Assembly (NCBI GenBank): GCA_008080615.1 | Contig: VIKJ01000016.1 | Location: 1-37,478 of the forward strand | DNA: 37,478 nt | Direction: 5' to 3' | Origin: Chitinophagaceae bacterium | GTDB lineage: Bacteria; Bacteroidota; Bacteroidia; Chitinophagales; Chitinophagaceae | Part shown: piece by piece, positions 10,601 through 35,380 of the stretch | Layout: each line of letters starts with the position of its first letter | Numbering within the stretch: the stretch's first letter is position 1 | Position numbers and translations under genes: made by a program | Notes under the pieces: model-generated | What the model was told of the DNA's origin: nothing | Database searches by the model: none | What the model saw: the letters and a program-made list of their open reading frames with translations, nothing else

Positions 10601-10613
10601 TAGATCATACGCA

Positions 10614-12667: not shown

Positions 12668-12685
12668 CCTTCTTAAAATAAGCAT

Positions 12686-13999: not shown

Positions 14000-14022
14000 T
14001 TTATAAATAAATATACCTATTC

Positions 14023-15111: not shown

Positions 15112-17076
15112 TTGAAAATGGAAAAAGGTTTATCAGGTAATATAGCAAAGGCATTTTTACAATCAAAGCTAACCATCTTATTGATGATTGCTTTTCTATT
15201 GATTGGCGGGTATAGTACTTTATTGATACCACGTGAAGAAGAGCCCCAAATACAAGTACCCATGGCTGATATCTTTATAGGATATCCAGGCGCTTCCCCA
15301 AAGGAGGTTGAAACAAAAATTGCTGCACCAATGGAAAAATTCATTTCCAATATAAAAGGTGTAGAATATGTTTATTCAACTTCTATGAAAGGTCAACTAA
15401 TGCTTATCGTTCAATTTTATGTGGGCGAGGATGTAGAAAAGTCGTTGGTGAAGTTGTATAGTGAAATAATGAAGCATATGGATATAATGCCACAAGGTGT
15501 TACAATGCCTTTGGTAAAACCTCGTGCAATTGATGATGTACCCGTTTTAGGATTTACATTATGGGGGGAGCACTATGATGATTATCAATTAAAGTTAATT
15601 GGGCAAGCATTAGCTAACGAAATTAAGAAAGTTCCTAATGTAGCAGAAGTATCTATTACAGGAGGAAGAAATAAAGAAGTAAAAGTAATTTTAGATAAGT
15701 CCTTAATGGCCTTAAATGGAGTTGATTTAATTGGCATCAGTAAGTTAATTCAAGCTGGTAACGTTCAAAACGATGCTGGAATATTGGTTCGTAACGATAC
15801 AGCCATATCTATTCAAACAGGCAACTTTTTTAATGCAGCAGATGATGTAGCTAAATTAGTTGTAGGCATGAAAAATGGGCAACCTATTTATTTGCATCAG
15901 GTTGCAAAAGTGGAAGAAGCTCCATCAGAAGCAGCACAATATGTATTTTTTGGATATGGTAAAGCGGATACAGCTGGTTTTAAAAAATATGCAGGATCAT
16001 ATCCAGCTATTACGGTATCTGTTGCAAAAAAATCGGGATCTGATGCAATGAAGCTTGCAACAGAAATTCAAGAAAAAGTAAAGCATTTAAAAAAGGATTT
16101 AATTCCAACTGATTTACAAGTATCCGAAACCAGAAATTACGGAGATTCGGCATCACATAAAGTAAGTGAACTCTTGTTCCATTTATTTATATCTATTGTA
16201 GTTGTTACACTATTTGTAATGCTAGCAATGGGTTGGCGGGGTGGGTTGGTTGTGTTTTTATCGGTTCCGGTAACATTTGCACTTACTTTATTTAGTTATT
16301 ATGTGATGGGCTATACCTTAAATAGAATTACACTGTTTGCACTGGTATTCATTACCGGAATAGTTGTGGATGATTCTATTATTATTGCTGAAAATATGCA
16401 TCGTCATTTTAAGATGCGTAAGCTTCCTCCATTACAGGCAGCAATATATGCCATCAACGAAGTGGGGAATCCTACCATATTGGCAACATTTACAGTTGTG
16501 GCCGCAGTTTTACCCATGGCTTTTGTTTCGGGAATGATGGGGCCGTATATGAGTCCTATGCCAATAGGAGCTGCAATAGCCATGATGCTTTCATTGGTTG
16601 TAGCACTTACATTAACACCTTATCTGGGATATATATTTTTAAGAGAGAAAGAAAAGAAAGGAGTAGCTCATCAAGAACATAAGGCTCATGTTTTAGAAGA
16701 AACAGGTGTATACAAAATTTATTATCGTTTCATTCATCCAATGCTTGAAACAAGATGGAAACGTTGGGCCTTTATTTTTGGAACAGTATTGGTGTTGATA
16801 GGTTCAATGTTATTATTCTATACCAAATCTGTGGCTGTAAAAATGCTTCCATTCGATAATAAAAATGAATTTCAGGTTGTGATAGATATGCCAGAAGGTA
16901 CAACACTAGAAAAAACCATGGCAGTTGCGGCTGAAGTTGCTGCGTATGTTTCCGCTCAACCAATGGTAAAAGACTACCAGGGTTATATTGGAACTTCAGC
17001 GCCAATCAGTTTTAATGGATTGGTAAGGCATTATGATTTGCGAATGGCCAGAAGAGAGAGATATTCAAAGTCATGA
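15112..17076 (+). CDS. RND efflux permease, N-terminal fragment of an interrupted gene
   Basis: IPREEEPQIQVPMADIFIGYPGASPKEVETKIAAPMEKFI; VVDDSIIIAENMHRHF; reading frame breaks after NGLVRHYDLR. Confidence 0.85.
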   Translation: MKMEKGLSGNIAKAFLQSKLTILLMIAFLLIGGYSTLLIPREEEPQIQVPMADIFIGYPGASPKEVETKIAAPMEKFISNIKGVEYVYSTSMKGQLMLIVQFYVGEDVEKSLVKLYSEIMKHMDIMPQGVTMPLVKPRAIDDVPVLGFTLWGEHYDDYQLKLIGQALANEIKKVPNVAEVSITGGRNKEVKVILDKSLMALNGVDLIGISKLIQAGNVQNDAGILVRNDTAISIQTGNFFNAADDVAKLVVGMKNGQPIYLHQVAKVEEAPSEAAQYVFFGYGKADTAGFKKYAGSYPAITVSVAKKSGSDAMKLATEIQEKVKHLKKDLIPTDLQVSETRNYGDSASHKVSELLFHLFISIVVVTLFVMLAMGWRGGLVVFLSVPVTFALTLFSYYVMGYTLNRITLFALVFITGIVVDDSIIIAENMHRHFKMRKLPPLQAAIYAINEVGNPTILATFTVVAAVLPMAFVSGMMGPYMSPMPIGAAIAMMLSLVVALTLTPYLGYIFLREKEKKGVAHQEHKAHVLEETGVYKIYYRFIHPMLETRWKRWAFIFGTVLVLIGSMLLFYTKSVAVKMLPFDNKNEFQVVIDMPEGTTLEKTMAVAAEVAAYVSAQPMVKDYQGYIGTSAPISFNGLVRHYDLRMARRERYSKS

Positions 17077-17539
17077 TATTGCAAAGTCAATGCGCTTGCC
17101 ATTGCAAAAGATTGGATTAAAATATCAAGCCAATATAAAACTAGTTGAAGTGCCTCCAGGCCCGCCAGTATTGTCTACGATTGTTGCAGAAATTTATGGA
17201 CCTGATTATGCGCAGCAAATAATAATTGCAAAGCAAGTTGAGCAGCTGATGAAAAAAACAAGTGACGTTGTTGATATAGACTGGATGGTGGAAGATGATC
17301 AGAATGAGTTTCAAATTACAGTTGATAAAGAAAAAGCAATGTTAAGTGGAGTTGCTACTGGGCAAATTACTGCCACTGTTCAGGGTGCTTTATCTGGAAT
17401 GATTGTAGGAAAAATTAACCAACCATCAACTTATCACCAGGTGCCTATTAAACTTCAATTAAGAGACGCCGAAAAAAATAGTATTAGTCAATTGTTAGAT
17501 TTACAAGTTCAGAATAATCAAGAAATCAAAAAGAAGTAG
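17033..17539 (+). CDS. RND efflux permease, middle fragment in a different frame
   Basis: EERDIQSHDIAKSMRLPLQKIGLKYQANIKLVEVPPGPPVLSTIVAEIYGPDY resumes RND homology in frame 2. Confidence 0.8.
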   Translation: MICEWPEERDIQSHDIAKSMRLPLQKIGLKYQANIKLVEVPPGPPVLSTIVAEIYGPDYAQQIIIAKQVEQLMKKTSDVVDIDWMVEDDQNEFQITVDKEKAMLSGVATGQITATVQGALSGMIVGKINQPSTYHQVPIKLQLRDAEKNSISQLLDLQVQNNQEIKKK

Positions 17540-17556
17540 TTTATGTTTTAGCCGAT

Positions 17557-18216
17557 ATGGCTGGAAAATTAGAAAGCCCTTCTTATGCAATGTCTGCTAT
17601 GTCTGATAGTTTAAAGAATATTAAATTACCAATTGGTTATACAACACTTAAAGAGGAATATACGGCTCAACCAGTAAATCAAGACGAATATTCACTTAAG
17701 TGGGACGGCGAATGGCAAATAACGTATGAGGTATTCAGAGATCTTGGAATTGCATTTGCAGCGGTAATCTTAATTATTTATATGTTGATTGTAGGGTGGT
17801 TTCAAAACTTTACTGTTCCATTAGTGATGTTAGCCGCTATTCCATTATCACTTATAGGTATCTTATTAGGCCACTGGATGATGGGAGCATATTTTACTGC
17901 AACTTCTATGATTGGCTTCATTGCCTTAGCTGGTGTTATGGTACGAAATTCGGTTTTGCTAATTGATTTTATTAATATTCGGTTGAAAGAAGGGGTGCCA
18001 TTGAAACAATCCATTATAGAGGCAGGGGCTGTGAGAACTACACCTATATTATTAACTGCAGGAGCAGTTGTGTTAGGAGCGGTGATTATTTTATTCGATC
18101 CTGTATTTCAGGGCCTAGCTATTTCTTTAATGGGTGGAACAATTACTTCTACATTTTTAACCTTGCTGGTTGTTCCATTGCTTTATTATAAAATGATGCG
18201 CGGTAAAGTAAAATAA
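17557..18216 (+). CDS. RND efflux permease, C-terminal fragment back in frame 1
   Basis: NQKEVVYVLADMAGKLESPSYAMS...GVMVRNSVLLIDFINIRLKEG...TTPILLTAGAVVLGA; homology begins upstream of the ATG at about 17540. Confidence 0.82.
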   Translation: MAGKLESPSYAMSAMSDSLKNIKLPIGYTTLKEEYTAQPVNQDEYSLKWDGEWQITYEVFRDLGIAFAAVILIIYMLIVGWFQNFTVPLVMLAAIPLSLIGILLGHWMMGAYFTATSMIGFIALAGVMVRNSVLLIDFINIRLKEGVPLKQSIIEAGAVRTTPILLTAGAVVLGAVIILFDPVFQGLAISLMGGTITSTFLTLLVVPLLYYKMMRGKVK

Positions 18217-18226
18217 AAATTATATT

Positions 18227-18535
18227 ATGAAACTATTATTTGTTACAGCTCTTAAGGAGTACAGCGAAGACATTACTTTAATTTTTAAAAAAGCCAATAT
18301 CCATATTTATAGTGCTACGGATACTATTGGTTTTAAAGATGGCGATGAATCTAATTTATTAGATAATTGGTTTAGTAGTGGAGAAGCCAAGTTTGATTCT
18401 GTTTTTGTTTTCTCATTTACTTCCGAAGAACATGTTGATGTTGCAATGCAATTAATTAAAGAACACAATACAACCAGTCAATCTGAATTTCCTATTAGGG
18501 CATTTGTATTGCCAGTTGAAAAATCATCCCATTAA
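18227..18535 (+). CDS. Small conserved-looking protein of unknown function in the efflux operon
   Basis: 102 aa ORF 11 bp after the RND gene on the same strand; no family recognised by eye. Confidence 0.65.
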   Translation: MKLLFVTALKEYSEDITLIFKKANIHIYSATDTIGFKDGDESNLLDNWFSSGEAKFDSVFVFSFTSEEHVDVAMQLIKEHNTTSQSEFPIRAFVLPVEKSSH

Positions 18536-18543
18536 AAAAATAT

Positions 18544-18753
18544 ATGAAAGAAAGAATTGTACGCGCTGTAGCAGGCAGCATTATGTTAGCCTCTGTTTTA
18601 TTAACTTATTATGTAAGTATTAATTGGTTATGGTTAGGTGTATTTGTTGGTTTGAATTTACTTCAGTCATCATTCACTCGATTTTGCCCACTTGAACTCA
18701 TATTAGATCTTGCTGGGGTTAAAGAAACACCAGGGAAAAAGAATTGTTGTTAG
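18544..18753 (+). CDS. DUF2892 / YgaP-like small membrane protein ending in Cys-Cys
   Basis: RIVRAVAGSIMLASVLLTYY...WLWLGVFVGLNLLQSSFTRFCPLELILDLAGVKETPGKKNCC. Confidence 0.75.
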   Translation: MKERIVRAVAGSIMLASVLLTYYVSINWLWLGVFVGLNLLQSSFTRFCPLELILDLAGVKETPGKKNCC

Positions 18754-18774
18754 TGAAGTAAGTGAAATTATTGG

Positions 18775-19935
18775 TTATTTACTTGGTAAATTATTAAGTA
18801 GAAAATCACGCACGTTTCCACCCATTATTTTGTAAATATCTTCCTTATTGAAACCTTCTTTAAGTAAGGCATTTACAATAAGTGGAAGCCCAGTTACATC
18901 AAAGTGTGTACCAATAGCTCCATCAAAATCAGATCCTAAAGCTACTTTATCTACGCCTATTTTATCTGCTACATAACGGATACTCTTTGCAGTAGCTGCA
19001 GCATCTGTTCCACAAACAGCTGTTTCCCATAATCCAATTCCTACTAACCCGTTGCGCTTACCTATTTCCAATAAGTGTGCGTCTGATAAATTTCGGTTAT
19101 TGTCGCAAACACCTTTTACACCAGTATGCGAAATAATTAGTGGACTATTGGTAATGGCAAAAATATCGTCAATGGTTTTTGTAGAGCTATGGGCTAAGTC
19201 AATAATCATATGTAAACTATCCATCGATCGGATAAGTAATTTACCTTTTTCTGTAAGGCCTCCTTTTTCCATGCCGTGTTTAGAGCCAGCCCAAGCATTA
19301 TCAAAAAAATGAGTTAATCCAATATACCTAACTCCAGCATTGTAAAATTCTTTTAGGTTAGCTATTTCATTATTAAGACAATGAGCACCTTCAATTCCTA
19401 GCATTCCTGCTGTAAGGGTTTTTTTTGATTTTCTGTCTTCAATATATGCTTGAAGTGTTTCTTTATTAGTTATGATTCGGAATGCACCATCAGATTTCTT
19501 AGCAGTTTTAAACAGTGCTTCAGTTTGATGGATTGCTCTTTTCTTTACACTAAACCAATCTTCTGGATTACGCAATTGTGCAAAACTTAAGAGTGAAATT
19601 TGATCCGTTTTATCATCATTTTTTTCAATATTTATACCTCTTGGAGCTTTACTCACAATGGTGAAAACCTGAAAAGCCATATTGACTTCTTGCATTCTGG
19701 GAATGTCTACATGGCCATATTCATGCCTCTTTAAATTATCTCTATTCCAAAGCAGTGCATCGCAATGTAAATCTGCAATAAATGGAATGGAATCGTACCA
19801 TATTACTTTTTGCGGATTTGTATCTACTAAGGTTACTACATTGGTTGTTTTGTCTATGTAGCTAGGAGCAAAAATGAAAAAACAAATTGCTGCCAATATG
19901 AATAGAAGAGCAAGAACTTTGACTATTTTTTTCAT
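18775..19935 (-). CDS. Membrane dipeptidase (peptidase M19)
   Basis: FIADLHCDALLWNR; GIEGAHCLNN; GLTHFFDNAWAGSKHG; SHTGVKGVCDNNRNLSD; ALGSDFDGA. Confidence 0.9.
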   Translation of the reverse strand: MKKIVKVLALLFILAAICFFIFAPSYIDKTTNVVTLVDTNPQKVIWYDSIPFIADLHCDALLWNRDNLKRHEYGHVDIPRMQEVNMAFQVFTIVSKAPRGINIEKNDDKTDQISLLSFAQLRNPEDWFSVKKRAIHQTEALFKTAKKSDGAFRIITNKETLQAYIEDRKSKKTLTAGMLGIEGAHCLNNEIANLKEFYNAGVRYIGLTHFFDNAWAGSKHGMEKGGLTEKGKLLIRSMDSLHMIIDLAHSSTKTIDDIFAITNSPLIISHTGVKGVCDNNRNLSDAHLLEIGKRNGLVGIGLWETAVCGTDAAATAKSIRYVADKIGVDKVALGSDFDGAIGTHFDVTGLPLIVNALLKEGFNKEDIYKIMGGNVRDFLLNNLPSK

Positions 19936-19989
19936 TTTTATTTCAATTTACTGTTTTTCAATAATGTAACAGTAAATTTTATATTTGCA

Positions 19990-20691
19990 CTATTCGCGCC
20001 GGAAAATCTTTACATTAAAATTGTGTAAATCATATCTGGCCCCAACTATCTCTAATTCCTTATTCTCTAATTTTTCCGATATAATATTCGATTGCATTTT
20101 TAATTGTTTTATTCCATGCAATACATTAGCTATTACACAATCATCTAAACGATTAGGATCATTAGCTGCAATTGCTTTAATTTCAATTTCTGCTTTAAGG
20201 CTATCAATGATATCTTTTATATGACCTGGCGCAACACCTCCTTTTACGAATGCATCAACAGCCCCACAGCTTTCATGCCCCATGATCATGATTAATTTTA
20301 CATTTAAATGCTCAACAGCATACTCAATACTCCCTAGTTCTACATTTCCTATAATATTACCTGCAGTTCTAATTGTAAATATATCTCCAACACCTTGGTC
20401 AAATAAAAGTTCCGGCGAAACCCTGCTATCCGAACAGCAAACTATAATGGCAAATGGATGCTGTTCTTTTACTACAGACTTTAATCTTTCTAAACTTTCA
20501 TCTGGATGAATGGATTTTGCGTTAGCAAAACGAATATTTCCGTTCATTAATCTCTCCAGCGGTGTTTCATTTTTTATGCTAGTTTCCGTAGCTTGTTTAG
20601 GTTGTGAAGGTTGTTTGCAACTACTATAACAAAGGATAGAGAGAATGAAAATACTTATTTTAACTATGGACACTTGATTTAAAAATTCCAT
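19990..20691 (-). CDS. Beta-class carbonic anhydrase, predicted lipoprotein
   Basis: Lipobox LCYSSCKQ; zinc-site motifs CCSDSRVSPE and GHESCGAVDA. Confidence 0.88.
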   Translation of the reverse strand: MEFLNQVSIVKISIFILSILCYSSCKQPSQPKQATETSIKNETPLERLMNGNIRFANAKSIHPDESLERLKSVVKEQHPFAIIVCCSDSRVSPELLFDQGVGDIFTIRTAGNIIGNVELGSIEYAVEHLNVKLIMIMGHESCGAVDAFVKGGVAPGHIKDIIDSLKAEIEIKAIAANDPNRLDDCVIANVLHGIKQLKMQSNIISEKLENKELEIVGARYDLHNFNVKIFRRE

Positions 20692-20711
20692 ATGATTTAT
20701 TTTAGAATAAG

Positions 20712-20719
20712 CAAAGGTA
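20712..20719 (-). promoter_or_regulatory. -7 element for the carbonic anhydrase gene
   Basis: Reverse complement reads TACCTTTG about 20 nt upstream of the ATG at 20691. Confidence 0.4.
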
Positions 20720-20763
20720 CAAACTTGAGTATTCTATAAGGCATATAGAATCAGTTGAATAAA

Positions 20764-20775
20764 TGATTTTAATCA
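20764..20775. promoter_or_regulatory. FNR-like palindrome TGAT-N4-ATCA
   Basis: TGATTTTAATCA in the divergent intergenic region between the carbonic anhydrase and the Cys-rich small protein. Confidence 0.35.
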
Positions 20776-20817
20776 TCTTTGGCGGTTTAAATTTTAACTA
20801 TACTGTATACTTATTAT

Positions 20818-20831
20818 GTAACCTTTGTTAC
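20818..20831. promoter_or_regulatory. Perfect palindrome GTAAC-N4-GTTAC, candidate Crp/Fnr-type operator
   Basis: GTAACCTTTGTTAC, similar to the GTTAC-containing dyad at 12621-12640. Confidence 0.4.
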
Positions 20832-20878
20832 GTTCACATGATCTATTCGAGTTTAATTTTGTTGGAGAAATAAAACAT

Positions 20879-21115
20879 ATGAAAGAAACGCTGTTTCAAA
20901 ATTGGAATTGGATGAGGGCACTAAGACTGATAATTGGTTTAACTATCATCATTCAGGCTATAATGGGCAAGGATTGGGTTTTGGGATTTGCAGGAGTATT
21001 TTTTTCTGCTATGCCAATCCTTAATTTGGGGTGTTGTGGTTCGGGAGCATGTTATACACCTATAAGGAAAGAGAGTGACTCAACTAAAGCAATTATTTAT
21101 GAAGAAGTGGATTAA
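20879..21115 (+). CDS. Small membrane protein, DUF2892/YgaP-like, with Cys-rich C-terminus
   Basis: MKETLFQNWNWMRALRLIIGLTIIIQAIMGKDWVLGFAGVFFSAMPILNLGCCGSGACYTP; start chosen at internal Met. Confidence 0.7.
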   Translation: MKETLFQNWNWMRALRLIIGLTIIIQAIMGKDWVLGFAGVFFSAMPILNLGCCGSGACYTPIRKESDSTKAIIYEEVD

Positions 21116-21308
21116 TACCAATATACTCTATATCATAGGGGCAATACTAGGAGCTATAGCAGGATTTTTTTATTGGAAATTGATTGGTTGCTCTTCGGGC
21201 TCCTGTGCCATTACCTCAAAGCCACTAAATAGTACAATTTATGGTGCTGTAATGGGGGCACTCATATTGAGTTTGTTTAAAAGGGAGCAAAAAGTAGTTA
21301 ATAAATAA
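21099..21308 (+). CDS. DUF6132-like small membrane protein
   Basis: [50 protein letters not shown]; overlaps the preceding gene by 17 nt. Confidence 0.7.
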
Positions 21309-21318
21309 TTTTACTGTA

Positions 21319-21615
21319 ATGACATTTAATGAGATTATACAATCGGATAAACCTGTGCTAGTAGATTTTTTTGCAGAATGGTGTGGACCTTGCAAAGTAA
21401 TGGCACCTATTTTGAAAGATGTTAAAGCTGATTTAGGTGATACGACTAGTATTTTAAAAATAGATGTAGACAAGAATCCTGGTACCGCTGCTGCTTATCA
21501 AATTCAGGGAGTACCAACATTAATATTATTTAAAAATGGAAAGCCACTTTGGAGGCAAAGTGGGGTAGTATCTAAAAGTACACTTATAAATATAGTAAAG
21601 CAGTATAGTGAATAA
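21319..21615 (+). CDS. Thioredoxin
   Basis: [20 protein letters not shown]...[28 protein letters not shown] (WCGPC). Confidence 0.93.
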
Positions 21616-21626
21616 ATCCTGCTGAA

Positions 21627-22055
21627 TTATAATAGAAATGGGATGATACTTTTTGTTCTCTCCATATATGATTTATATGAGGGAAATTTGATTAATAACA
21701 TTTGTTCCTCCCATTTGCTTTTAATGAGCAAAACAAGTAGTAATAAAATTACCGCAATTAGCTGGTATATAGAATAATGGATCACTAATAATCCAATTAC
21801 AAATAACAGAATTGAGCTATACATTGGGTGCCTTATATATTGATAAGGACCTGAAACTATTAAAATGGCTTCATTGGCTGGAATTGGTGAAATCCTAAGT
21901 TTACTTTTTCTCATAGCAATGATTGCCCAAAGGGCTAATATAATTGCTGGAGAAAGTATGCCAATACTCTTTAAGTTTAAAATTTTTTGGCCAGTATTGA
22001 AAGTGATTCCAATCAGCAAAGAAAATTGTAAAATTATTAAAGTTGGTGATTTCAT
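21627..22055 (-). CDS. Isoprenylcysteine carboxyl methyltransferase / PEMT-like membrane methyltransferase
   Basis: VSGPYQYIRHPMYSSILLFVIGLLV motif followed by KWEEQMLLIKFPSYKSYMERT. Confidence 0.75.
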   Translation of the reverse strand: MKSPTLIILQFSLLIGITFNTGQKILNLKSIGILSPAIILALWAIIAMRKSKLRISPIPANEAILIVSGPYQYIRHPMYSSILLFVIGLLVIHYSIYQLIAVILLLLVLLIKSKWEEQMLLIKFPSYKSYMERTKSIIPFLL

Positions 22056-22094
22056 AAATACTATATTTGTTACTGATTAAATATACAGTAATTC

Positions 22095-22403
22095 ATGAAA
22101 AAGATATTATATGCAATTTTTGTTTTAGCCATTCTGCAATCTTGCAATAGTGTAGAACAAAAAAATCCTGATCCAGCAGTAAATGATACTTCAGTAATTG
22201 TTGCTGATAGTACAGCCATGCATAGAGAAGATTTGTTTAAAGATGTAGTATTTGATTCAAAGAAGGATTTTGTTTGTGGAATGCCTATTACTGCAGGAGT
22301 TTCGGATACAGCTCATTATAAAGAAAAAGTATATGGATTTTGTTCATCAGAATGTAAAGCTGAATTTGTTAAGAATCCATCTTCATTTATAGCTGCTAAA
22401 TAG
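22095..22403 (+). CDS. YHS-domain lipoprotein
   Basis: Lipobox LAILQSCNS; DFVCGMPITAGVSDTAHYKEKVYGFCSSECKAEFVKNPSSF. Confidence 0.8.
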   Translation: MKKILYAIFVLAILQSCNSVEQKNPDPAVNDTSVIVADSTAMHREDLFKDVVFDSKKDFVCGMPITAGVSDTAHYKEKVYGFCSSECKAEFVKNPSSFIAAK

Positions 22404-22442
22404 TATCCTTATTCCTATTCTTTGTTCAAGAATTAAGCAATT

Positions 22443-23129
22443 TTATATTGACATTACTTTGCTTTGGCAAATGAAATTGCTAACGGGTATTCCTGTATTG
22501 CGAATTGCATTGAAGCCTCCAGATATTTCGGTAAAATTTCTGTAACCTCTTGCCTGTAAAATAGAGGCGGCAATCATGCTTCTATAACCGCCTGCGCAAT
22601 GAATATAAAAGTGATCTTTAATCCATTCATTAATATATGCTAGGGGCTTGCTAAATGCATTTTCAATGTGTTCGGCTTTATACTCTGATTCTTTTCGAAT
22701 ATCAATAATGGTTTCTTTTTTAGTATCAACATTTTCTGCAAACGCGTCAGCATGTATACGATCAATGGTATCAGCTTCTTTGCCTGCATTCATCCAAGCA
22801 TTGAATCCGCCGGCTAAATATCCAAGAACATGATCAAATCCAACCCTACTAAGCCGAGTAATAATTTCTTCTTCTTTTCCGGGTTCAGCAACCAAAATAA
22901 TTGGATGATTTACATCTACTATCATGGCGCCAACCCAAGGCGCAAAATCACCTGAAATCCCAATATTGATAGACTGCGGAATAAACCCTAAATAAAAATC
23001 ACTATGTTCTCTTGTGTCTAGGATAAGTGCTTCAGTATTTTCAGCGAATGTTTCAAACTCATCAGGAGAAAGTGCTTTCATCCCTTTATTTAATACAAGA
23101 TCAAATGCTTCGTATCCTTGTTTATTCAT
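22443..23129 (-). CDS. Tandem rhodanese-domain protein (possibly the C-terminal part of an MBL-rhodanese fusion)
   Basis: LILDTREHSDFYLGFIPQSINIG and ETIIDIRKESEYKAEHIENA...FYIHCAGGYRSMIAASILQARGY. Confidence 0.82.
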   Translation of the reverse strand: MNKQGYEAFDLVLNKGMKALSPDEFETFAENTEALILDTREHSDFYLGFIPQSINIGISGDFAPWVGAMIVDVNHPIILVAEPGKEEEIITRLSRVGFDHVLGYLAGGFNAWMNAGKEADTIDRIHADAFAENVDTKKETIIDIRKESEYKAEHIENAFSKPLAYINEWIKDHFYIHCAGGYRSMIAASILQARGYRNFTEISGGFNAIRNTGIPVSNFICQSKVMSI

Positions 23130-23794
23130 GGCATAAATGAATCTCTATTCGGTTGATTTAATGCATAGTTCATCTTTTTTTGATTTCCTAAACTATCCAC
23201 CGTTTCTTTCATCATATTTTTTCCGCATTCACTTCCTGCACCATGCGCTGGATATACAATCACATCATCCGCTAAGGGCATTATTTTATTCATTAAGCTA
23301 TCGTATAATAAACCCGCTAATTCTTCCTTGGTTAAATTGGCAGCTTTTTGTGCAAGATCAGGACGGCCTACATCCCCCAAAAACAGGGTATCGCCACTAA
23401 AAATGCAATAGTCTTTTCCTTTTTCGTCAATCAATAAAAAAGTACTGCTCTCCATTGTATGACCAGGTGTGTGCAACACTTTAATTGCGATATCACCGAT
23501 GATAAAAATTTCATTGTCTTTTGCGGTAATACAATCATAACCTGCTACAGCCGTAGGGCCAAATACAATTGAAGCACCTGTTTTTTTACTAAGGTCTACA
23601 TGACCGCTAACAAAGTCGGCATGAAAATGTGTTTCAAAAATATATTTTAGTTGAACTTTATCTTTTTCTAAACGCGCTAAATAAGGTTGAACCTCTCTCA
23701 ATGGGTCTATAATTGCGGCTTCGCCATTGCTGGTAATATAATAAGCTCCTTGAGCAAGGCAACCAGTATAAATCTGTTCTATTTTCATGTACAC
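23126..23794 (-). CDS. MBL-fold metallohydrolase, persulfide dioxygenase-like
   Basis: FETHFHADFVSGHVDLSKKTGA...VLHTPGHTMESSTFLL...FSGDTLFLGDVGRPDL...VYPAHGAGSECGKN; ATGA overlap with the rhodanese ORF. Confidence 0.85.
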   Translation of the reverse strand: MYMKIEQIYTGCLAQGAYYITSNGEAAIIDPLREVQPYLARLEKDKVQLKYIFETHFHADFVSGHVDLSKKTGASIVFGPTAVAGYDCITAKDNEIFIIGDIAIKVLHTPGHTMESSTFLLIDEKGKDYCIFSGDTLFLGDVGRPDLAQKAANLTKEELAGLLYDSLMNKIMPLADDVIVYPAHGAGSECGKNMMKETVDSLGNQKKMNYALNQPNRDSFMP

Positions 23795-23831
23795 AATTTT
23801 TGGAGATACAAAGTTGTGTAATAAAACAGGC

Positions 23832-24656
23832 TTATTTAATGATAAAAATCATAAATAGCTCTGATTCTTCCCGCTTTTTAAAAGAGTTATAGCAGGTTTC
23901 CAATTTTTTAATTGAAAACGTAGGTGAAAATAAGTGAATATATTCTTCCTTATTTCCTCCAAATGGTGGGCCACCTTCGAAGCTTCTATTGAAAAGTAAT
24001 CCAACTAATTTTCCTCCCTTAGCAATTAGCTGGCTCATTTTTATTACATAATTTGTTCTTAGTGATGGGTCTATTGCACAAAAAAAAGTTTGTTCAATAA
24101 TTAGGTCATATTGGCCTTGATGATTAAAAAAGTCGCCTAAGATTATTTGAATCCGCGAATCGTTTTTATATTTTTTTTGGAGAGATTGAACCAATGGTTC
24201 AGCAATATCTATGAGTGTGATATTGGTAAAGCCTTGTTCTAATAAATAAGCTGCTTCATACGCATTACCACAACCTGGAATGAGTATTCTACAATCTTTG
24301 TTGGTTAGTTGATCAATATACTGTTTAATAGGAGGGGATACTAGCCCTAAATCCCATTGAGTTGAATTGTTTTGGTATTTATCCGACCAAAAATTGGCGT
24401 CTAATGAATTAGCTGAGTTTATAAGTGACTCTATATAAATTCTGCTTTTCATTTTTTTGATTGCTGCTTCTCTAGATCTAGCTTCAGTAAAGGTATTGTA
24501 ATATTCAATGTGTTTTATAATCCAAGGGATACCAGCTTTTGTTGATTTATTTCTACCTGCATTGTGTTGTGATAATCTAATGGTTAGATTTTCACAAGAG
24601 CCTGTGTAGTATTTGTTTAGTGATTTTGAATAAATAATATAGACAGTATACGACAT
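23832..24656 (-). CDS. Fused GIY-YIG endonuclease domain plus TPMT-like SAM-dependent methyltransferase
   Basis: MSYTVYIIYSKSLNKYYTGSCENLTIRLSQHN (GIY-YIG) continues without a stop into LDANFWSDKYQNNSTQWDLGLVSPPIKQYID...ILIPGCGNAYEAAYLL (TPMT-like). The N-terminal 33 aa of the ORF track translate the tRNA and were removed. Confidence 0.75.
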   Translation of the reverse strand: MSYTVYIIYSKSLNKYYTGSCENLTIRLSQHNAGRNKSTKAGIPWIIKHIEYYNTFTEARSREAAIKKMKSRIYIESLINSANSLDANFWSDKYQNNSTQWDLGLVSPPIKQYIDQLTNKDCRILIPGCGNAYEAAYLLEQGFTNITLIDIAEPLVQSLQKKYKNDSRIQIILGDFFNHQGQYDLIIEQTFFCAIDPSLRTNYVIKMSQLIAKGGKLVGLLFNRSFEGGPPFGGNKEEYIHLFSPTFSIKKLETCYNSFKKREESELFMIFIIK

Positions 24657-24682
24657 AAAAAAAGCCCACAGCAATGTGGGCT
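24656..24682 (-). terminator. tRNA-Ala terminator
   Basis: On the - strand: AGCCCACA-TTGC-TGTGGGCT followed by a T-tract; 8-bp perfect stem. Confidence 0.8.
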
Positions 24683-24696
24683 TGATTTTAAAACTG

Positions 24697-24770
<74 letters not shown>

Positions 24771-24780
24771 ATGTGGATTG

Positions 24781-24811
24781 CAAATGTATAGGCTCAGAGG
24801 GGTATGACAAA
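24781..24811 (-). promoter_or_regulatory. tRNA-Ala promoter
   Basis: - strand TTTG-N19-TACATTTG ending 10 nt upstream of the tRNA 5' end. Confidence 0.7.
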
Positions 24812-24938
24812 ATTTTAGTTATAAAGGAATCCTCCCCTTCTCAACCAACCGGATATACTCATCATTTTCACTGCGCCAGGGGCATTGGTAATTCTCAACC
24901 GCAAATCTAAAGGTTCCCTGCCGGGAGACTTCCCCGGG

Positions 24939-24974
24939 AAAAAAAAGTCCGCCAAAGCAAATACTCCGGCGAAC
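24939..24974 (-). terminator. Terminator downstream of the right citrate synthase copy
   Basis: - strand GTTCGCC...GGCGGAC stem (one G-T pair) followed by eight T. Confidence 0.6.
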
Positions 24975-25012
24975 AAATTTTATTATTGTTTGTGATTGGT
25001 GAACCGCACCAC

Positions 25013-26354
25013 TTATTCCCAAATCTCATCTTTCCCTTCCAGCCATAACTTAACCGATTCGGTAGTAACCGATTTAGGACGTTCGAGCGGAAAGCCGAGG
25101 ACCCTGTCCCAGCAAAGACTTGCCATTACACCCAATGCACGGCTAACGGCGAAGAGAACGGTATAAAATTCATATTCAACCATTCCATAATGAACCAATA
25201 AGGCGCCACTATGCGCGTCTACATTGGGCCAGGGATTTTTTATTTTACCGAGCGACTGTAAAATAGGTGGCACCGTATCATAAATATTCCAAACCGTATT
25301 CACCAGTTTATCATCCGGCATATGTTTTTTACCAAACTCCATTTGCGCGGTGAAACGTGGGTCTGTTTTGCGCAATACGGCATGGCCATAACCGGGTACT
25401 ACTTTACCATCGGACAATGTTTTTTGAACATAACCAGCTATCTGTTCCCTTGTTGGTTCATCGGTACCCAGTTGCTCCTGCATCTCATAGATCCACTTAA
25501 TCACTTCCTGGTTAGCCAATCCATGTAAAGGGCCGGCTAAACCATTCATTCCGGCTGCATAACTCAGGAATGGATCACTTAAAGCGGATCCTACCAGGTG
25601 TGTGGTATGTGCCGATACGTTACCCCCTTCATGATCGGCATGAATGGTCATGTATAAACGCATCAGCTCTTTAAAGCTTTCATCTTCAAAACCCATCATA
25701 TGCGCCAGGTTACCTGCCCAATCGAGCAAACCATTGGGTTGTATATGCTCACTGTTTTTATATTTTCTCCGGTAGATATACGCGGCAATACGCGGCAGAC
25801 GGGCTATCAGGTCCATCGTGTCATCAAAAGCCGGGTTCCAGTAATCCGACTTACTGATGCCTTTAGAATATTCTTTGGCAAAATTACTTTCTGTTTGCAG
25901 CGCCATCACACCGGTAACAAACATGGTCATGGGATGCGCGCTAATGGGCAATGCATGCGCTAATGGGCAATGCATCAATAGTGGCAAACACATAGTTGGG
26001 TACATGACTGCGGCGTTGCCAGATATTGGTAATATGGGCCACATCTTCTGCTGTTGGCAATTCGCCAATCAACATCAGGTAATATAAACCTTCGGGCAGT
26101 GGTTCCCCGCCATTAGGGGCCCTGGGCAATTTTTCCTGCAATTCCGGAATAGAGTATCCACGAAAACGAATACCATCCTGCGCATCCAACAAACTGGTTT
26201 CAGTTACCAAACCGGTAATTCCACGCATACCCTGGTAAACCTGCGCCAGGGTTACTTCTCCGATCTTTCTGCTACCATGCTGCTTCAGCAATTCCTTAAT
26301 TTCTACATTCGAGGCATCCGCTTTTACTTTAAACCGCTCTTTAATTAATTCCAT
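25013..26354 (-). pseudogene. gltA: Citrate synthase (second copy), frame-disrupted by a 19-bp tandem duplication
   Basis: MELIKERFKVKADASNVEIKELLKQHG...[10 protein letters not shown] | [21 protein letters not shown]...GKDEIWE. Near-exact 19-mer repeated at 25937-25955 and 25956-25974. Confidence 0.85.
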
Positions 26355-26499
26355 GACTGATTTTTTATTGATAAGCTTACATAATACCATAGATAGGCAG
26401 GCCATATCAGAAAAGCCTTTCCTAAATGCGATAAAGGTAAAACAAGTTGCCATCCGCGACAAAACAAATGGGATGAAGGTTGTTGAAATAATGATAAAA

Positions 26500-27591
26500 T
26501 TATTTCGGCGCTTTGCGATATAGGTAAACCACTACAAAAACGAAGATAATATTGGGTATCCAGGCAGCTAACAACGGGGGCAGATTACCCTTGGTAGAGA
26601 AAATGGTAGAAAACCTGTCAGTAATAATAAATAATGCCGCCACCACAAAACCCACTGCCAGGTGTACCCCGCTGCCACCCCTCACCTTACGCCCGGCCAC
26701 AATGGCCCCGATAAGTGTTAACAGGAGTACCGTTACACAGGTAGCATCACGGCGGTAGCGTTCCACTTTCAATTCATTCAACCCCTCAGAACCGCGCAAT
26801 TCTTCCAGCCGTATAAACCGGTCCAGCTCGGGAGAAGTGAGTTTGTCTTTGGTGTATTTGTCGCGGCTAAGGTCGTAAGGTTTAAAATTAAAGTTCATCA
26901 CCCTGCTTAACTCAATAGTAACCTGTTCATTCAAAGGATTCAATTTCCGCTCAACTAATGATTCGAGTTTCCATTTTTTGCCTGCCGTATCCCAAAGGAT
27001 CACATCGGCCCTTGAATTCAGCACCACTTTATTACCCTCCACCTTATATAAAAAAATGGGGCCACCCCTTTTCAGCGCCGTATCATAGGTATAAATACCG
27101 GCGAACGTAAATGAATCCACCCTTAAATAAATATTGCTGGGCGGCGCCACCAGGCTGTTATAAGAGTTATTACCATCAATATACCTGGCTTCAAAAGCCC
27201 CTCTTACCTGGTTGGCACGGGGTACTATATACTGGTTAGAGAACCAAAGCATAGCAGCCAGGATAATGCCACCGATCCAGTAAGGCCGTAACCATCGCGA
27301 ATAGGAAGTTCCGCTGGCCAGGATGGCTATAATCTCGCTTCTGCCGGCCATCTTAGAGGTAAAAAAAATCACAGCGATAAATACAAATAAAGGAAACAGC
27401 AACGCCACTATATGCGGTATAAAACCGGCATAATATTCCGTAAGCACCCGCTTAAGCCCCAGTTGCGACTTAACAAAATCATCCGTTTTTTCACTTACAT
27501 CCACTACCACGGCAATGATGGAAAACAGGAAAATGGCGAAGAAGAAGGTGGTCAGAAACTTCTTTAGTATGTACCAGTCGATTTTCTTCAT
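26500..27591 (-). CDS. LptF/LptG family permease (second copy)
   Basis: Same length (363 aa) and clearly homologous to 6706-7797. Confidence 0.88.
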   Translation of the reverse strand: MKKIDWYILKKFLTTFFFAIFLFSIIAVVVDVSEKTDDFVKSQLGLKRVLTEYYAGFIPHIVALLFPLFVFIAVIFFTSKMAGRSEIIAILASGTSYSRWLRPYWIGGIILAAMLWFSNQYIVPRANQVRGAFEARYIDGNNSYNSLVAPPSNIYLRVDSFTFAGIYTYDTALKRGGPIFLYKVEGNKVVLNSRADVILWDTAGKKWKLESLVERKLNPLNEQVTIELSRVMNFNFKPYDLSRDKYTKDKLTSPELDRFIRLEELRGSEGLNELKVERYRRDATCVTVLLLTLIGAIVAGRKVRGGSGVHLAVGFVVAALFIITDRFSTIFSTKGNLPPLLAAWIPNIIFVFVVVYLYRKAPK

Positions 27592-27670
27592 GATAGGTTA
27601 TCCTGGCAAAGATACAGGGGGGAGTTGTAAGTTATATTGTTGTAGGTTATAAGTTATATGGTCCTTTGAT

Positions 27671-28810
27671 TTATAGTCTTTGTTTAACTTTTATAACCAT
27701 CTCTTTTTTCCAACTGCTGAAATCTCCCTCCAGTATATGTTTCCTGGCTTCTCCCATGAGCCAGAGGTAGAAGGCAAGGTTTTGAATGCTGGCCAGTTGC
27801 AGGCCCAGGATTTCGTTGGCTACAAATAAATGACGCAGGTAGGCTTTGGAATAATATTGACTGGTTTCGCAAGGCAGGCCCGGATCAACAGGAGAAAAAT
27901 CGGTTGCCCATTTTTTATTTTTTATGTTGATAACACCCTGTGTAGTAAACAGCATCCCATTCCGGCCATTGCGGGTGGGCATTACACAATCAAACATATC
28001 AATACCCAGATCAATGCACTCCAGTATATTCCATGGGGTGCCCACTCCCATTAAATAACGGGGTTTATCAACAGGCAAATGACCGGTACAGTATTCCGTG
28101 AATTCATACATCATCTCTTCCGGTTCGCCCACACTCAATCCGCCAATCGCATTACCCGCCGCCCCTTTGGAGGCGATGTATTCGCAGGAAGCTTTTCGAA
28201 GATCCTTATAGGTACTTCCCTGAACTATCGGGAAAAGATGCTGGGAATAGCCATATTTGTCCGGCGTTTCACTCAATCGCTGAAAACACCTGTCCAGCCA
28301 GCGATGCGTGAGTTCCATACTTTTTTTAGCATAGGCATACTCACTGGGGTAAGGTGGACATTCATCAAATGCCATGATGATATCCGCACCAATACTGCGT
28401 TGAATATCCATGACCGATTCGGGTGTGAATAAATGCCGGCTGCCATCAATATGCGATTGAAACATTACCCCTTCTTCCTTAATTTTCCGATTGGCTGCCA
28501 GTGAAAAAACCTGGTAGCCCCCGCTATCGGTTAAAATGGGCCTGTTCCAACCAATGAATGTATGCAGGCCGCCGGCCCCTTCCAGCACTTCAGTACCGGG
28601 CCTCAGGTATAAATGATAGGTATTGCCCAGTATGATCTGCGCCCGCACCTCCTGTTTTAATTGTTGCTGTGTTACGGCTTTTACACTACCCACAGTACCT
28701 ACCGGCATAAAAATGGGCGTCAGTATCTCCCCATGACCGGTAATCATCTTACCCGCTCTCGCCTTTGAGCCCGTTGCATTTGCCGGTAACTGAAATTCCA
28801 ATGCTGCCAT
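27671..28810 (-). CDS. tgt: tRNA-guanine transglycosylase (second copy)
   Basis: Same length (379 aa) and Tgt signatures as 5366-6505. Confidence 0.95.
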   Translation of the reverse strand: MAALEFQLPANATGSKARAGKMITGHGEILTPIFMPVGTVGSVKAVTQQQLKQEVRAQIILGNTYHLYLRPGTEVLEGAGGLHTFIGWNRPILTDSGGYQVFSLAANRKIKEEGVMFQSHIDGSRHLFTPESVMDIQRSIGADIIMAFDECPPYPSEYAYAKKSMELTHRWLDRCFQRLSETPDKYGYSQHLFPIVQGSTYKDLRKASCEYIASKGAAGNAIGGLSVGEPEEMMYEFTEYCTGHLPVDKPRYLMGVGTPWNILECIDLGIDMFDCVMPTRNGRNGMLFTTQGVINIKNKKWATDFSPVDPGLPCETSQYYSKAYLRHLFVANEILGLQLASIQNLAFYLWLMGEARKHILEGDFSSWKKEMVIKVKQRL

Positions 28811-28822
28811 CCGGCAAAAGTA
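28811..28822 (-). promoter_or_regulatory. -7 element 4 nt upstream of the tgt start
   Basis: - strand TACTTTTGCCGG-ATG. Confidence 0.5.
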
Positions 28823-28880
28823 AGGAAAAGACGCCCGCTATTCTTTTCCACACCCCATCCACTCTAACCCTCCAAAACGC

Positions 28881-28892
28881 TACTTTTGCCGG
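28881..28892 (+). promoter_or_regulatory. -7 element 4 nt upstream of the GT2 start
   Basis: + strand TACTTTTGCCGG-ATG; perfect 15-bp inverted repeat with 28808-28822. Confidence 0.5.
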
Positions 28893-30017
28893 ATGATGAT
28901 ACCACCCGTTGTATGGAGCATTCTTTTCTATGCTTTTTGTACAGTGATCGCCATCCAGGTTTTTTATTACCTGTATTTTTTTAGCCGCCTGGCCTTTTAT
29001 AAAGCGCCTGCTAAAGAAGTCAGCCATGAGCACCCCGTATCTGTGGTGATCTGCGCACGTGATGAAGCGGATAATCTTGCCAGGAACCTGCCCGGTGTAT
29101 TGGTGCAGGATTATAAGACCACCCATGAAGTGGTGGTAGTGAACGACAACTCTACCGATGATGGCAGATATGTGATTGATGAATTCAATAAATCATTCAA
29201 GAACATCAATCATATACAGCTTACCCAGGAAGCGAAGATGATCAGCGGTAAAAAATTTCCTTTATCAATGGGTATCAGAAGCGCCAAATATGAGATATTA
29301 TTACTCACCGATGCGGACTGCACACCCGCTTCTGAATACTGGATGCAGAAAATGCAGGATGCCTATACCGACAATACAGAGATTGTACTCGGTTACGGGG
29401 CATACCACAAAAGGCCGGGCATTCTAAACAAGCTCATCCGGTTCGAAACATTTCATACCGCTTTACAATATTTATCTTATGCCCTCGCAGGCACACCTTA
29501 TATGGGCGTTGGCAGGAACCTGAGTTATAAAAAAGAAGTGTTCTTACGCAATAAAGGCTTCTCATCCATTAACCAGATACCCAGTGGTGATGATGATCTA
29601 TTTATTAACCAGGTAGCTACCGCAAACAATACCGCGATAGTAATTGATCCGGATGCTCATACCCTGAGTGAGCCTAAAAAAAGATGGAGTCACTGGATGA
29701 CGCAGAAATACCGTCATTATACCACCAGCCGGTATTATAAGCCAAAGCATAAGTTTTTATTGGGACTCTATTCCCTTTCACAGTTCCTGGTTTATCCATT
29801 ACTGGCAGTTGCCCTCATTTTTTTTAACTGGTGGATGGCATTATCGGTATATGGTGTACGGTTACTGGTACAGTCGGTTGTTTTTTTCAGGACCATGAAA
29901 AAACTGGATGAGCGGGACCTGGTGCCCTGGTTCCTGTTACTGGATATCTGGTTATTCTTTTATCATATTTTTACACTACCCGCTATATGGAAAGCGCCCC
30001 GCAAAAACTGGGATTGA
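28893..30017 (+). CDS. Glycosyltransferase family 2 membrane protein (second copy)
   Basis: Homologous along its length to 4204-5328. Confidence 0.87.
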   Translation: MMIPPVVWSILFYAFCTVIAIQVFYYLYFFSRLAFYKAPAKEVSHEHPVSVVICARDEADNLARNLPGVLVQDYKTTHEVVVVNDNSTDDGRYVIDEFNKSFKNINHIQLTQEAKMISGKKFPLSMGIRSAKYEILLLTDADCTPASEYWMQKMQDAYTDNTEIVLGYGAYHKRPGILNKLIRFETFHTALQYLSYALAGTPYMGVGRNLSYKKEVFLRNKGFSSINQIPSGDDDLFINQVATANNTAIVIDPDAHTLSEPKKRWSHWMTQKYRHYTTSRYYKPKHKFLLGLYSLSQFLVYPLLAVALIFFNWWMALSVYGVRLLVQSVVFFRTMKKLDERDLVPWFLLLDIWLFFYHIFTLPAIWKAPRKNWD

Positions 30018-30631
30018 TTCAGAAATATTTTGACGATTTTTCTGAAGAGCAGGTAGCGCAGTTTACCGCCCTGGAAGCATTATATACTGAATGGAACGCG
30101 AAGATCAATGTGATATCGAGAAAAGATATTGATTCGATTTATTTGCACCATGTATTGCATTCGCTAAGCATTGCCGCCATTGCTAATTTTGAACCCGGCA
30201 CACAGGTGATTGATATTGGTTGTGGCGGTGGTTTCCCCGGCGTACCGCTGGCCATCTTTTTTCCAAAAGTAAAATTTCACCTGGCAGACAGTATCGCCAA
30301 AAAATTAAAAGTAGTGGAAGCCGTTTGTGAAGGGGCCAATATCAAAAATATTACGATACAGCATACCCGTGCAGAGGAAATCAAGAACCGCAAATTCGAC
30401 TATGCCATTTCAAGAGCCGTGGCCCCGCTGAAGGATCTCTGGAAATGGAGCGCCCCTCTTTTAAGAAAAGATCATTCAAAAGCATTACCCAATGGACTGA
30501 TCTGCCTCAAAGGCGGAGACCTGGCCCAGGAAATTTTTGAAAGCGGCCTGCGCCCCAGGATGATGCCGATCTTTAAAATTTTCCCGGAAGAATACTTTGC
30601 AGAGAAGTATGTGATTCATGCGGCGAAGTGA
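29987..30631 (+). CDS. rsmG: 16S rRNA (guanine527-N7)-methyltransferase (second copy)
   Basis: VIDIGCGGGFPGVPLAIFFPKVKFHLADSIAKKLKVV. Confidence 0.92.
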   Translation: MESAPQKLGLIQKYFDDFSEEQVAQFTALEALYTEWNAKINVISRKDIDSIYLHHVLHSLSIAAIANFEPGTQVIDIGCGGGFPGVPLAIFFPKVKFHLADSIAKKLKVVEAVCEGANIKNITIQHTRAEEIKNRKFDYAISRAVAPLKDLWKWSAPLLRKDHSKALPNGLICLKGGDLAQEIFESGLRPRMMPIFKIFPEEYFAEKYVIHAAK

Positions 30632-30938
30632 ATGTCTGAAACGTGATTTTGGAGGATTATTGTTGAATGCCTAATTATTGTCCACATTATTTAACATTCA
30701 ACATAACAGATATTCAAGAACAGCATCTAAAAAAAACAGGCTGTCCCAAAGTTAGGAATACTGCTTGCTGAAATATTATACTTGATTGCCCAGTTTTGAA
30801 AAGAAGTATTTTGCAGATTAATTTCAGTATCAGTCATTCCACCTGGCGTACCATCAATGGACAAAACCGAGGCATCCGCATTTCTTAAACGGTCAGTGAT
30901 GGTTGTATTTACATTTACCAGCCACAAATTGAATATGA

Positions 30939-31500
30939 TTACCTGGTATAGCGTACATCAAACCTGCCTTCCCTTATTTGTACTTTTTGTCCATTGGCAT
31001 TCACTGCATCAAACCAGAAAGTACCGGAAGCGATTTGATTGATGGTGTCTAATCTTTTTATGAGGAGTTCACCTGTATAGATAGGTTTTTTTGTGCGATA
31101 TGACCAATCTTGAGAGCTACTACCTAACCCAAAATAATTTCCATATGAAGAACCTTTAAAAGCACTATCTAAGCTAAGTCTAAAATTTTCTTGTATTTTT
31201 AAGCTATCTGTAAATAAGCCAACGGCGGTTTGATTATTACCACTGCCTTTAACTCCAGAAAGTCTAAAATAATAACCTCCATTGGCTCCAGTCCCTAAAA
31301 ATTGATAATTACTACCAAGTGAACCTCCACTCAACTGTGCCCCCCGGCTTAAACACCCCTCCATCCACCAAACAGCCAAAAGTATTAGCACCTGTTTGTG
31401 TTTCAGGTGGTAATTGGTCAATAGGATTTACAGGTTTATTTTTTCGGCAACTGCTGCTGAGTAAAACAAAGCTTACAGCAATTATTAAAAAAGATTTCAT
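30939..31500 (-). pseudogene. DUF6252-like lipoprotein with a frameshift at a C homopolymer
   Basis: N-part MKSFLIIAVSFVLLSSSCRKN...NTFGCLVDGGVFKPGG in one frame, continuing AQLSGGSLGSNYQF...REGRFDVRYTR* in another; C6 run at 31340-31345. Confidence 0.55.
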
Positions 31501-31737
31501 GTCTGAGACTTTTAGTTGTATAAAGAGATGTAATAGTAATTTTTTCTTATAAAAAACCTTATTGCTACGGCAGTTGTATTAAATCTTTATTACTGTCGGT
31601 ATGTGTACAAAGGAAATAGGAAAAGATGTTCGGGTATCGCTTCCGGCTAACCGGTTTTGTTTAGCCAGGATAAGCCGGAAACCTATTTCGGGGAAAAACA
31701 AGTGATACACGCGGCCGGATAATCGGCAGCTAACGGA

Positions 31738-33606: not shown

Positions 33607-33694
33607 AATTATAGAATTATTATCACCTACATTTTCTAAAAATCACCTTTACACTTGCTTCAACATTAAAACTCCCGTATTCAATATTCGATAT

Positions 33695-34363
33695 TCACTC
33701 GGCTTTCCCCGCAACCACAATCACTATTTCTCCTTTTACGGTTTTGGCTTTAAAATGGTCGCATACTTCCCGCAGACTGCCGCGTTTATTTTCTTCGAAT
33801 AGTTTGGTTAATTCACGACTAACGGAACAGGCTCTGCCGGCCCCGAAATACACAACAAATTCTTCGAGGGTTTTTACCAAACGCATGGGACTTTCATAAA
33901 AGACCATGGTTCTTTCTTCGCCGGCCAGTTGTTTCATCATTGTCTGGCGGCCTTTTTTTAATGGCAGAAAACCTTCAAACACAAAACGGTTGGCGGGTAT
34001 GCCACTGTTTACCAGCGCGGGTACAAAAGCGGTAGCGCCGGGCAGGCATTCTACTTTTACATTATGCTTAATGCATTCCCTAACCAATAAAAAAGCGGGG
34101 TCTGAAATGCCCGGCGTACCCGCGTCTGTAATCAATGCCATTGTTTTTCCGGCCACTAACTGTTCCACAATATGCGGCACAATTTTGTGTTCATTATGCT
34201 GATGATAGGGAGAAACCGGTTTCTGAATATTATAATGATTGAGTAGTTTGGAAGAAGTACGGGTATCCTCACACAAGATCACATCCACCTGCTGCAACAG
34301 TTCAAGAGAACGTAGCGTGATATCCTTTAGGTTACCGAGGGGGGTGGGGATTAAGTAAAGCAA
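33695..34363 (-). CDS. rsmI: 16S rRNA (cytidine1402-2'-O)-methyltransferase (second copy)
   Basis: LYLIPTPLGNLKDITLRSLE...LITDAGTPGISDPAF; TTG start directly after the purS stop. Confidence 0.92.
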   Translation of the reverse strand: MLYLIPTPLGNLKDITLRSLELLQQVDVILCEDTRTSSKLLNHYNIQKPVSPYHQHNEHKIVPHIVEQLVAGKTMALITDAGTPGISDPAFLLVRECIKHNVKVECLPGATAFVPALVNSGIPANRFVFEGFLPLKKGRQTMMKQLAGEERTMVFYESPMRLVKTLEEFVVYFGAGRACSVSRELTKLFEENKRGSLREVCDHFKAKTVKGEIVIVVAGKAE

Positions 34364-35373: not shown

Positions 35374-35380
35374 TCGTTTA

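Follow-up and report, generated by a model that had tools for sequence, protein, structure and literature searches.

Background

Integrative elements encoding tyrosine recombinases use tRNA genes as insertion sites and re-create the 3′ end of the tRNA. Among GIY-YIG nucleases, SegB of T-even phages is a free-standing homing endonuclease associated with tRNA genes (PMC13096335). Fusions of this domain to methyltransferases have also been described: a GIY-YIG domain and a class-I methyltransferase of COG4123 are fused in five Lactobacillales, and a GIY-YIG domain and a SPOUT TrmH-like methyltransferase in Erythrobacter (Dunin-Horkawicz 2006, PMC1564403). The Erythrobacter fusion was considered by its authors to be possibly without functional meaning, given the mobility of the domain, and the same superfamily survey raised the question of whether GIY-YIG proteins beyond the known homing and restriction enzymes are molecular parasites (PMC1564403).

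The DNA analysed here (the window) is a stretch of 37,478 nt from a Chitinophagaceae MAG. It contains a reading frame in which a GIY-YIG nuclease is joined to a TPMT-like methyltransferase, and which lies directly behind a tRNA-Ala gene. A previous reading of the window, made from the sequence only, suggested that such a nuclease–methyltransferase fusion would be new, a view at odds with the fusions to other methyltransferase families reported in 2006 (PMC1564403). Like the window frame, the COG4123 and SPOUT fusions combine a small GIY-YIG domain and a methyltransferase in one chain, but they involve other methyltransferase families, and the COG4123 fusion has the opposite domain order. In addition, the COG4123 fusion recurs in five species, whereas the GIY-YIG–TPMT fusion was found in the window only.

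The nuclease half belongs to a group of short GIY-YIG genes that are linked to tRNA genes in Bacteroidota and are referred to here as cassettes. SegB is the nearest analogue of this tRNA link, sharing with the cassettes the location of a GIY-YIG gene beside tRNA genes and the occurrence of repeated tRNA-endonuclease segments. However, SegB is a phage gene, whereas the Bacteroidota genes encode a single domain and stand directly behind one tRNA, often with a broken copy of that tRNA carrying a hairpin. The cassettes resemble the tRNA-targeting integrative elements in having a tRNA gene as the target and a duplicated tRNA 3′ part, but differ from them in their size (~315–360 bp), in carrying a GIY-YIG nuclease and no recombinase, and in the position of the break, which is at the anticodon arm, a hairpin occupying this place in the displaced copy. 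The open-licence literature searched contained no account of Bacteroidota cassettes of this kind, and they are apparently undescribed.

Composite reading frame in the window

The composite frame is encoded on the minus strand (24656..23832) and comprises 274 aa in a single open frame with no internal stop; the plus strand over 23832–24656 is rich in stops. In a Pfam profile search, PF01541 (GIY-YIG) matched aa 3–70 (E = 3.5e-12; 46.9 bits vs a cut-off of 22.6) and PF05724 (TPMT) matched aa 86–261 (E = 1.1e-29; 104.1 bits vs a cut-off of 26), the latter match spanning nearly the whole profile (positions 2–196 of 218). The same search revealed no Pfam domain in the composite beyond these two. 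The residues that are invariant among GIY-YIG relatives (Y6, Y17, G19, R27, H31, and E63) are all present, and both domains are essentially complete. The sequence-only reading had described a GIY-YIG module (about aa 1–82) running without a stop into a TPMT-like methyltransferase, and the Pfam matches in one frame bear this description out.

The nuclease part (aa 1–82; 24411..24656, minus strand), complete as judged from the Pfam match and the conserved residues, is 71–75% identical to stand-alone genes located behind tRNA-Ala in three relatives (G110, G060, and G011). Its ATG abuts the T-run of a terminator-like hairpin (24657..24681, minus strand), which belongs to the tRNA gene and is the only feature between the frame and tRNA-Ala(GGC) (24696..24770, minus strand). 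The same 75 nt of this tRNA gene are found in many species of the genus.

The methyltransferase part (23832..24407, minus strand) resembles the TPMT-like PF05724 methyltransferases of Bacteroidota in sequence, in full length, and in its neighbours, and is complete as judged from the Pfam match and from relatives, but it differs from those genes in having no start codon of its own. Against TIGR03840, the equivalog for true thiopurine S-methyltransferase, it scored 59.9 bits, far short of the 223.2-bit cut-off, and is thus predicted to be a TPMT-like SAM methyltransferase distinct from the true thiopurine enzymes. Codon 69 (24450..24452, minus strand), located 3′ of an A-rich stretch, is an in-frame ATG and a possible internal start, from which the methyltransferase may be produced without the nuclease. 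The composite protein, if made, is expected to consist of two independently folding domains with no joint function. The next gene (22443..23794, minus strand) encodes an MBL-fold and rhodanese protein, is the syntenic partner of TPMT, and corresponds to one 471-aa frame in relatives G021 and G041.

No second example of the fusion was found. Across 147 same-genus genomes, the nuclease and the methyltransferase are separate genes: some matches corresponded to the nuclease (aa 1 to ~84) and others to the methyltransferase (from ~aa 79), the two kinds lying at separate places, and the few methyltransferase matches starting earlier cross stops or stop short of the nuclease. The fusion was also absent from 101 relatives, from a class-wide sample of 295 genomes, from the best 80 of 471 related contigs in GTDB genomes, and from the phages, plasmids, and viral contigs searched. 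Among 131 distinct TPMT loci, a GIY-YIG frame upstream of TPMT was present in the window alone. The premise that the two domains are normally encoded by separate genes therefore holds in all related genomes searched, while the suggested search for the same architecture in other genomes came up empty in the same-genus, class, GTDB, and phage/plasmid/viral sets. As for the fusion itself, the frame is present, but its status as a real architecture is unsupported, being a single occurrence on a chimeric contig with indels (see the next subsection). A conserved GIY-YIG–methyltransferase fusion, i.e. the same architecture in more than one genome, is not supported by these sequence comparisons.

Long frames upstream of TPMT at five other loci (L281, L105, L107, L012, and L287) were considered as candidate GIY-YIG fusions and rejected because they contain no GIY-YIG sequence. 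Those in L105 and L107 (both Pedobacter), L012, and L281 are directly upstream of TPMT-like genes and are possibly other in-frame neighbours or fusions.

Chimeric structure of the contig

The contig is a chimera of two species of the genus. A housekeeping block (PssA, RsmI, M1 peptidase, RsmG, glycosyltransferase, Tgt, LptG, and citrate synthase) is present twice in the window, in opposite orientation (126–9227 and 25013–35373 for these genes, with the second block delimited as far as 36739), and the two copies are 71–72% identical in DNA over the part compared. No third citrate synthase was found in the MAG. The GC content shifts from 0.352 to 0.429 across the window, with the best change point at 24663 (3-lnL interval, 24591–24734), which corresponds to the tRNA-Ala. 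Because the sampled contigs of the MAG have GC contents of 0.34–0.37, the left part (1..24695; 35% GC), in which the gene order is as in G129 and G179, was assigned to the MAG's own DNA, and the right part (24771..37478; 43% GC), containing the second housekeeping block, to another species of the genus. The nearest genomes are G023, G021, G041, and G129 for the left part and G122, G105, G010, and G101 for the right part. The chimeric join most likely sits at tRNA-Ala(GGC), since a 75-nt gene shared unchanged by many species of the genus is a natural site for a wrong join. An inversion between the window and G179 had also been considered, but was dropped after the duplicated housekeeping block revealed the chimera.

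Another contig of the MAG (C182; locus L196, G000:C182, positions 1–140) carries at its terminus two tandem tRNA-Ala 5′ halves with the hairpin TCCCGATGGAATCGGGA. The genes preceding these halves (RidA, threonine dehydratase, and GMC oxidoreductase) are those that precede tRNA-Ala in G129, and on this shared gene content C182 is likely to be the true upstream neighbour of the window tRNA-Ala, displaced by the foreign DNA.

The contig also contains small lesions in genes that are intact in relatives. The RND transporter gene is broken twice (by losses of ~38 nt at 17043–17054 and ~70 nt at 17521), the PKD protein gene once (~7 nt at 10745), and the MBL-rhodanese gene once, by a deletion of ~55 nt at 23132 relative to the 471-aa frame. 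An exact 19-bp tandem duplication (25938..25975, minus strand) breaks the second (foreign) citrate synthase gene. The short deletions suspected from the letters of the contig are thus real features of the assembly: at least four break reading frames, in addition to the 19-bp duplication, with the indel density referring to the window only. Elsewhere in the MAG, contigs are interrupted by N runs of 1, 5, 17, and 42 nt. Losses and an uncollapsed overlap of these sizes would fit faulty closing of scaffold gaps.

Origin of the joint

The joint was located by comparison with G179, which encodes the nuclease as well and is one of two genomes whose TPMT is most similar to that of the window. In G179, the nuclease gene ends with ATAAACTCAAATAATTGAGCGCCCCGATGC, its TGA stop running into a tRNA-like repeat, and the TPMT gene starts with ATGAACAATAACAATTCATTAGACGC, whereas the window reads ATAAACTCAGCTAATTCATTAGACGCC at the joint. 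Relative to G179, the nuclease stop (AATT-GA) and the TPMT ATG with the next three to four codons are missing. The joint coincides with the nuclease stop codon and overlaps the methyltransferase start by 4 nt, AATT, which are common to both sides (24407..24410, minus strand, as deduced from G179); this position lies within the 24390–24420 region proposed earlier for the joint. Loss of an intergenic stop and start had been offered there as an alternative to a true fusion, and the relatives agree with it, showing both a GIY-YIG stop and a separate methyltransferase start with the tRNA-like repeat between them.

In G129, tRNA-Ala and the TPMT-MBL-RHO genes lie on one strand, 4.8 kb apart, and the spacer holds LysR, YeiH-like, and other genes. 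None of these spacer genes was detected in the MAG (G000) by DNA search, a weak negative given that the MAG is 64% complete. The gene order in G129 and the upstream genes on C182 indicate that the order from tRNA-Ala to TPMT is ancestral and that only the spacer is missing. Given this parallel arrangement in a relative, the fusion would represent a loss of the DNA between the two genes.

We consider it probable that the composite is accidental, one half being the nuclease of a tRNA-linked cassette, for which a homing mechanism is proposed below, and the rest an ordinary chromosomal TPMT-like gene. The 82 residues of the nuclease part would derive from a cassette located behind tRNA-Ala(GGC), and the methyltransferase would belong with the downstream MBL/rhodanese/YHS/thioredoxin cluster. 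Their joining would have involved the loss of the nuclease stop, probably of a displaced tRNA fragment, and, as judged against G129, of ~4.7 kb containing other genes. Counting against an accident, both domains are complete and in frame. The balance between a one-off deletion in the cell and a gap-closing artefact is about even, and the fusion is accidental under deletion and gap-closing error alike.

An assembly artefact, in which the nuclease contig broke off at the repeated tRNA-like fragment and was glued to the TPMT contig during scaffolding or gap closing, has very nearly an even chance of being the explanation. It would be in keeping with a contig that joins two species and whose conserved genes have lost ~7, 38, 55, and 70 nt and gained a 19-bp duplication, with the N gaps of 1–42 nt in other contigs of the MAG, and with the tRNA-like repeat that begins exactly at the nuclease stop in relatives. 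However, the long exact sequence common to both species is the tRNA and not the joint, the 4-nt overlap at the joint is below any assembler k-mer, and the gene order across the joint is ancestral.

A real and functionally neutral deletion in one lineage, after which the methyltransferase may still start at the codon-69 ATG, is a tentative explanation to which we give somewhat less than an even chance. The AATT micro-overlap and the similar stretch present on both sides (ATAAACTCAGCTAATT / ATGAACAATAACAATT) fit an illegitimate deletion. Furthermore, in G048 (L119/L254) the next frame begins within the end of a tRNA-linked GIY-YIG gene, which indicates that DNA behind a cassette has been lost elsewhere too. 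On the other hand, the several losses on the same contig resemble assembly errors.

It is improbable that the chimeric join is at the GIY-YIG/TPMT boundary, with the tRNA and nuclease derived from the right-hand species and TPMT from the left. The order citrate synthase–tRNA-Ala–GIY-YIG is found exactly in G142, and because tRNA-linked GIY-YIG genes are AT-rich almost regardless of host, the GC step alone does not exclude such a join; for the same reason, GC content was discarded as uninformative for assigning the nuclease to a species. Nevertheless, no long word is common to both sides of this boundary, the nuclease is closest to those of G110, G060, and G011 and thereby sides with the left part, and C182 indicates that the left species has this tRNA-Ala locus, with broken copies of its own.

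The substrates of TPMT relatives are small molecules, e.g. thiopurines or Se/Te species, and not nucleic acids. For this reason, and because the fusion occurs once, on an unreliable contig, and the published fusions involve other methyltransferase families, a selected bifunctional enzyme of a restriction-modification-like kind, the methyltransferase protecting or the nuclease targeting a common substrate, is very improbable despite the two complete, in-frame domains and the GIY-YIG–class-I methyltransferase fusions known in Lactobacillales (PMC1564403).

tRNA-linked GIY-YIG cassettes in Bacteroidota

The short GIY-YIG genes of relatives start tens of bases 3′ of a tRNA on the same strand, usually right after the terminator T-run. 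The tRNA types heading them include Ala, Asp, Val, Gly, Lys, Leu, Arg, Met, and others. In a phylum-wide search, a same-strand tRNA was located within 250 nt upstream of a GIY-YIG copy in 26 of 30 loci and within 100 nt upstream of the first copy in 22, and an opposite-strand tRNA within 250 nt upstream in none of the 30. In a Pfam-wide genus sample, the fetched flank contained a tRNA in 11 of 13 short GIY-YIG loci versus 0 of 17 long UvrC-type loci. Matches to the short nuclease were present in 197 of the 297 genomes sampled from the phylum, which is taken to be Bacteroidota on the basis of named relatives. The nuclease of relatives consists of a single domain of ~80 aa, in which none of the DNA-binding C-terminal modules of typical GIY-YIG homing enzymes was found.

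In many relatives, the nuclease gene stands behind an intact tRNA and is accompanied by a displaced, broken copy of it. This copy, often found 3′ of the nuclease stop, is the 3′ part of the same tRNA, beginning in the D-arm. The displaced part matched its own tRNA at ≥24 of 31 bases in 15 of 36 tRNA–GIY pairs (tRNAs of other types matched at ~16 on average), and a clear displaced part was missing, having decayed or never been there, in the other 21. The broken copies contain a hairpin of the type TCCCGAT-N-ATCGGGA in place of the anticodon arm. A perfect stem of ≥6 bp was present in 21 of 23 broken copies, which were chosen by eye, so that this count is descriptive and not a blind test; 15 different 5′ arms were represented, with complementarity kept. 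In the window, the broken tRNA copy 3′ of the nuclease is missing. G129 provides an approximate empty site for the window locus, containing the same upstream genes and one intact tRNA-Ala but no nuclease.

A mirror form, composed of a broken 5′ half with a hairpin, the nuclease, and an intact tRNA, was found in L248, L249, and L252. In L248 (G000:C78) and L249, the broken part is the 5′ part of tRNA-Asp, the GIY-YIG gene is at ~1500–1740, and the intact tRNA-Asp is located 3 nt behind it. The single-contig genome G733 (L293, 1450–3033) contains five tandem 315-bp units, which are 99% identical, behind one intact tRNA-Asp. Each unit consists of the tRNA-Asp 3′ part, a terminator, the GIY-YIG nuclease gene, and the hairpin; no integrase or recombinase gene is present in the repeat unit, GIY-YIG being its sole gene.

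The position of the cassettes, the rebuilding of the tRNA, the displaced copies, the hairpins, the tandem arrays, and the kept catalytic residues are all observed features. From these we infer that the tRNA-linked GIY-YIG cassette may be a minimal tRNA-regenerating homing element. The nuclease would cut a cassette-free tRNA gene near the anticodon arm, and repair would copy in the cassette, whose own tRNA 3′ part would rebuild a functional tRNA. The original 3′ part would be left downstream with a hairpin replacing the anticodon arm, by which the target would be removed. Counting against this homing model, the window nuclease is no more than an 82-aa domain, lacking the DNA-binding tail of typical GIY-YIG homing enzymes, and 21 of the 36 tRNA–GIY pairs have no clear displaced 3′ part.

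In its broadest form, a proposal to which we give an even chance, the cassettes would constitute a phylum-wide and hitherto undescribed minimal mobile element of Bacteroidota. This element of ~315–360 bp (tRNA 3′ part, terminator, 80-aa GIY-YIG nuclease, and hairpin) would insert at the anticodon arm of many tRNA types, rebuild the tRNA, and leave a broken copy with a target-removing TCCCG-type hairpin, and the window fusion would have arisen by erosion of one of these elements into a host gene. That the tRNA-linked GIY-YIG genes are instead not mobile and serve the host, e.g. in processing tRNA-like transcripts, seems unlikely. Their very wide distribution (197/297 genomes), kept catalytic residues, and fixed position relative to the tRNA would be compatible with a host function, but the many tRNA types, the broken and truncated copies, the near-identical tandem arrays, and the patchy presence point to a selfish element.

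Implications

The fusion itself carries minor weight and mainly calls for caution regarding domain architectures deduced from chimeric MAG contigs. The tRNA-linked nuclease half is the weightier finding. Short GIY-YIG genes behind tRNAs, with their broken copies and tandem arrays, make the question of whether such nucleases are molecular parasites directly testable. The homing model, if true, would reveal a way for one 80-aa nuclease to spread via essential tRNA genes while the host survives.
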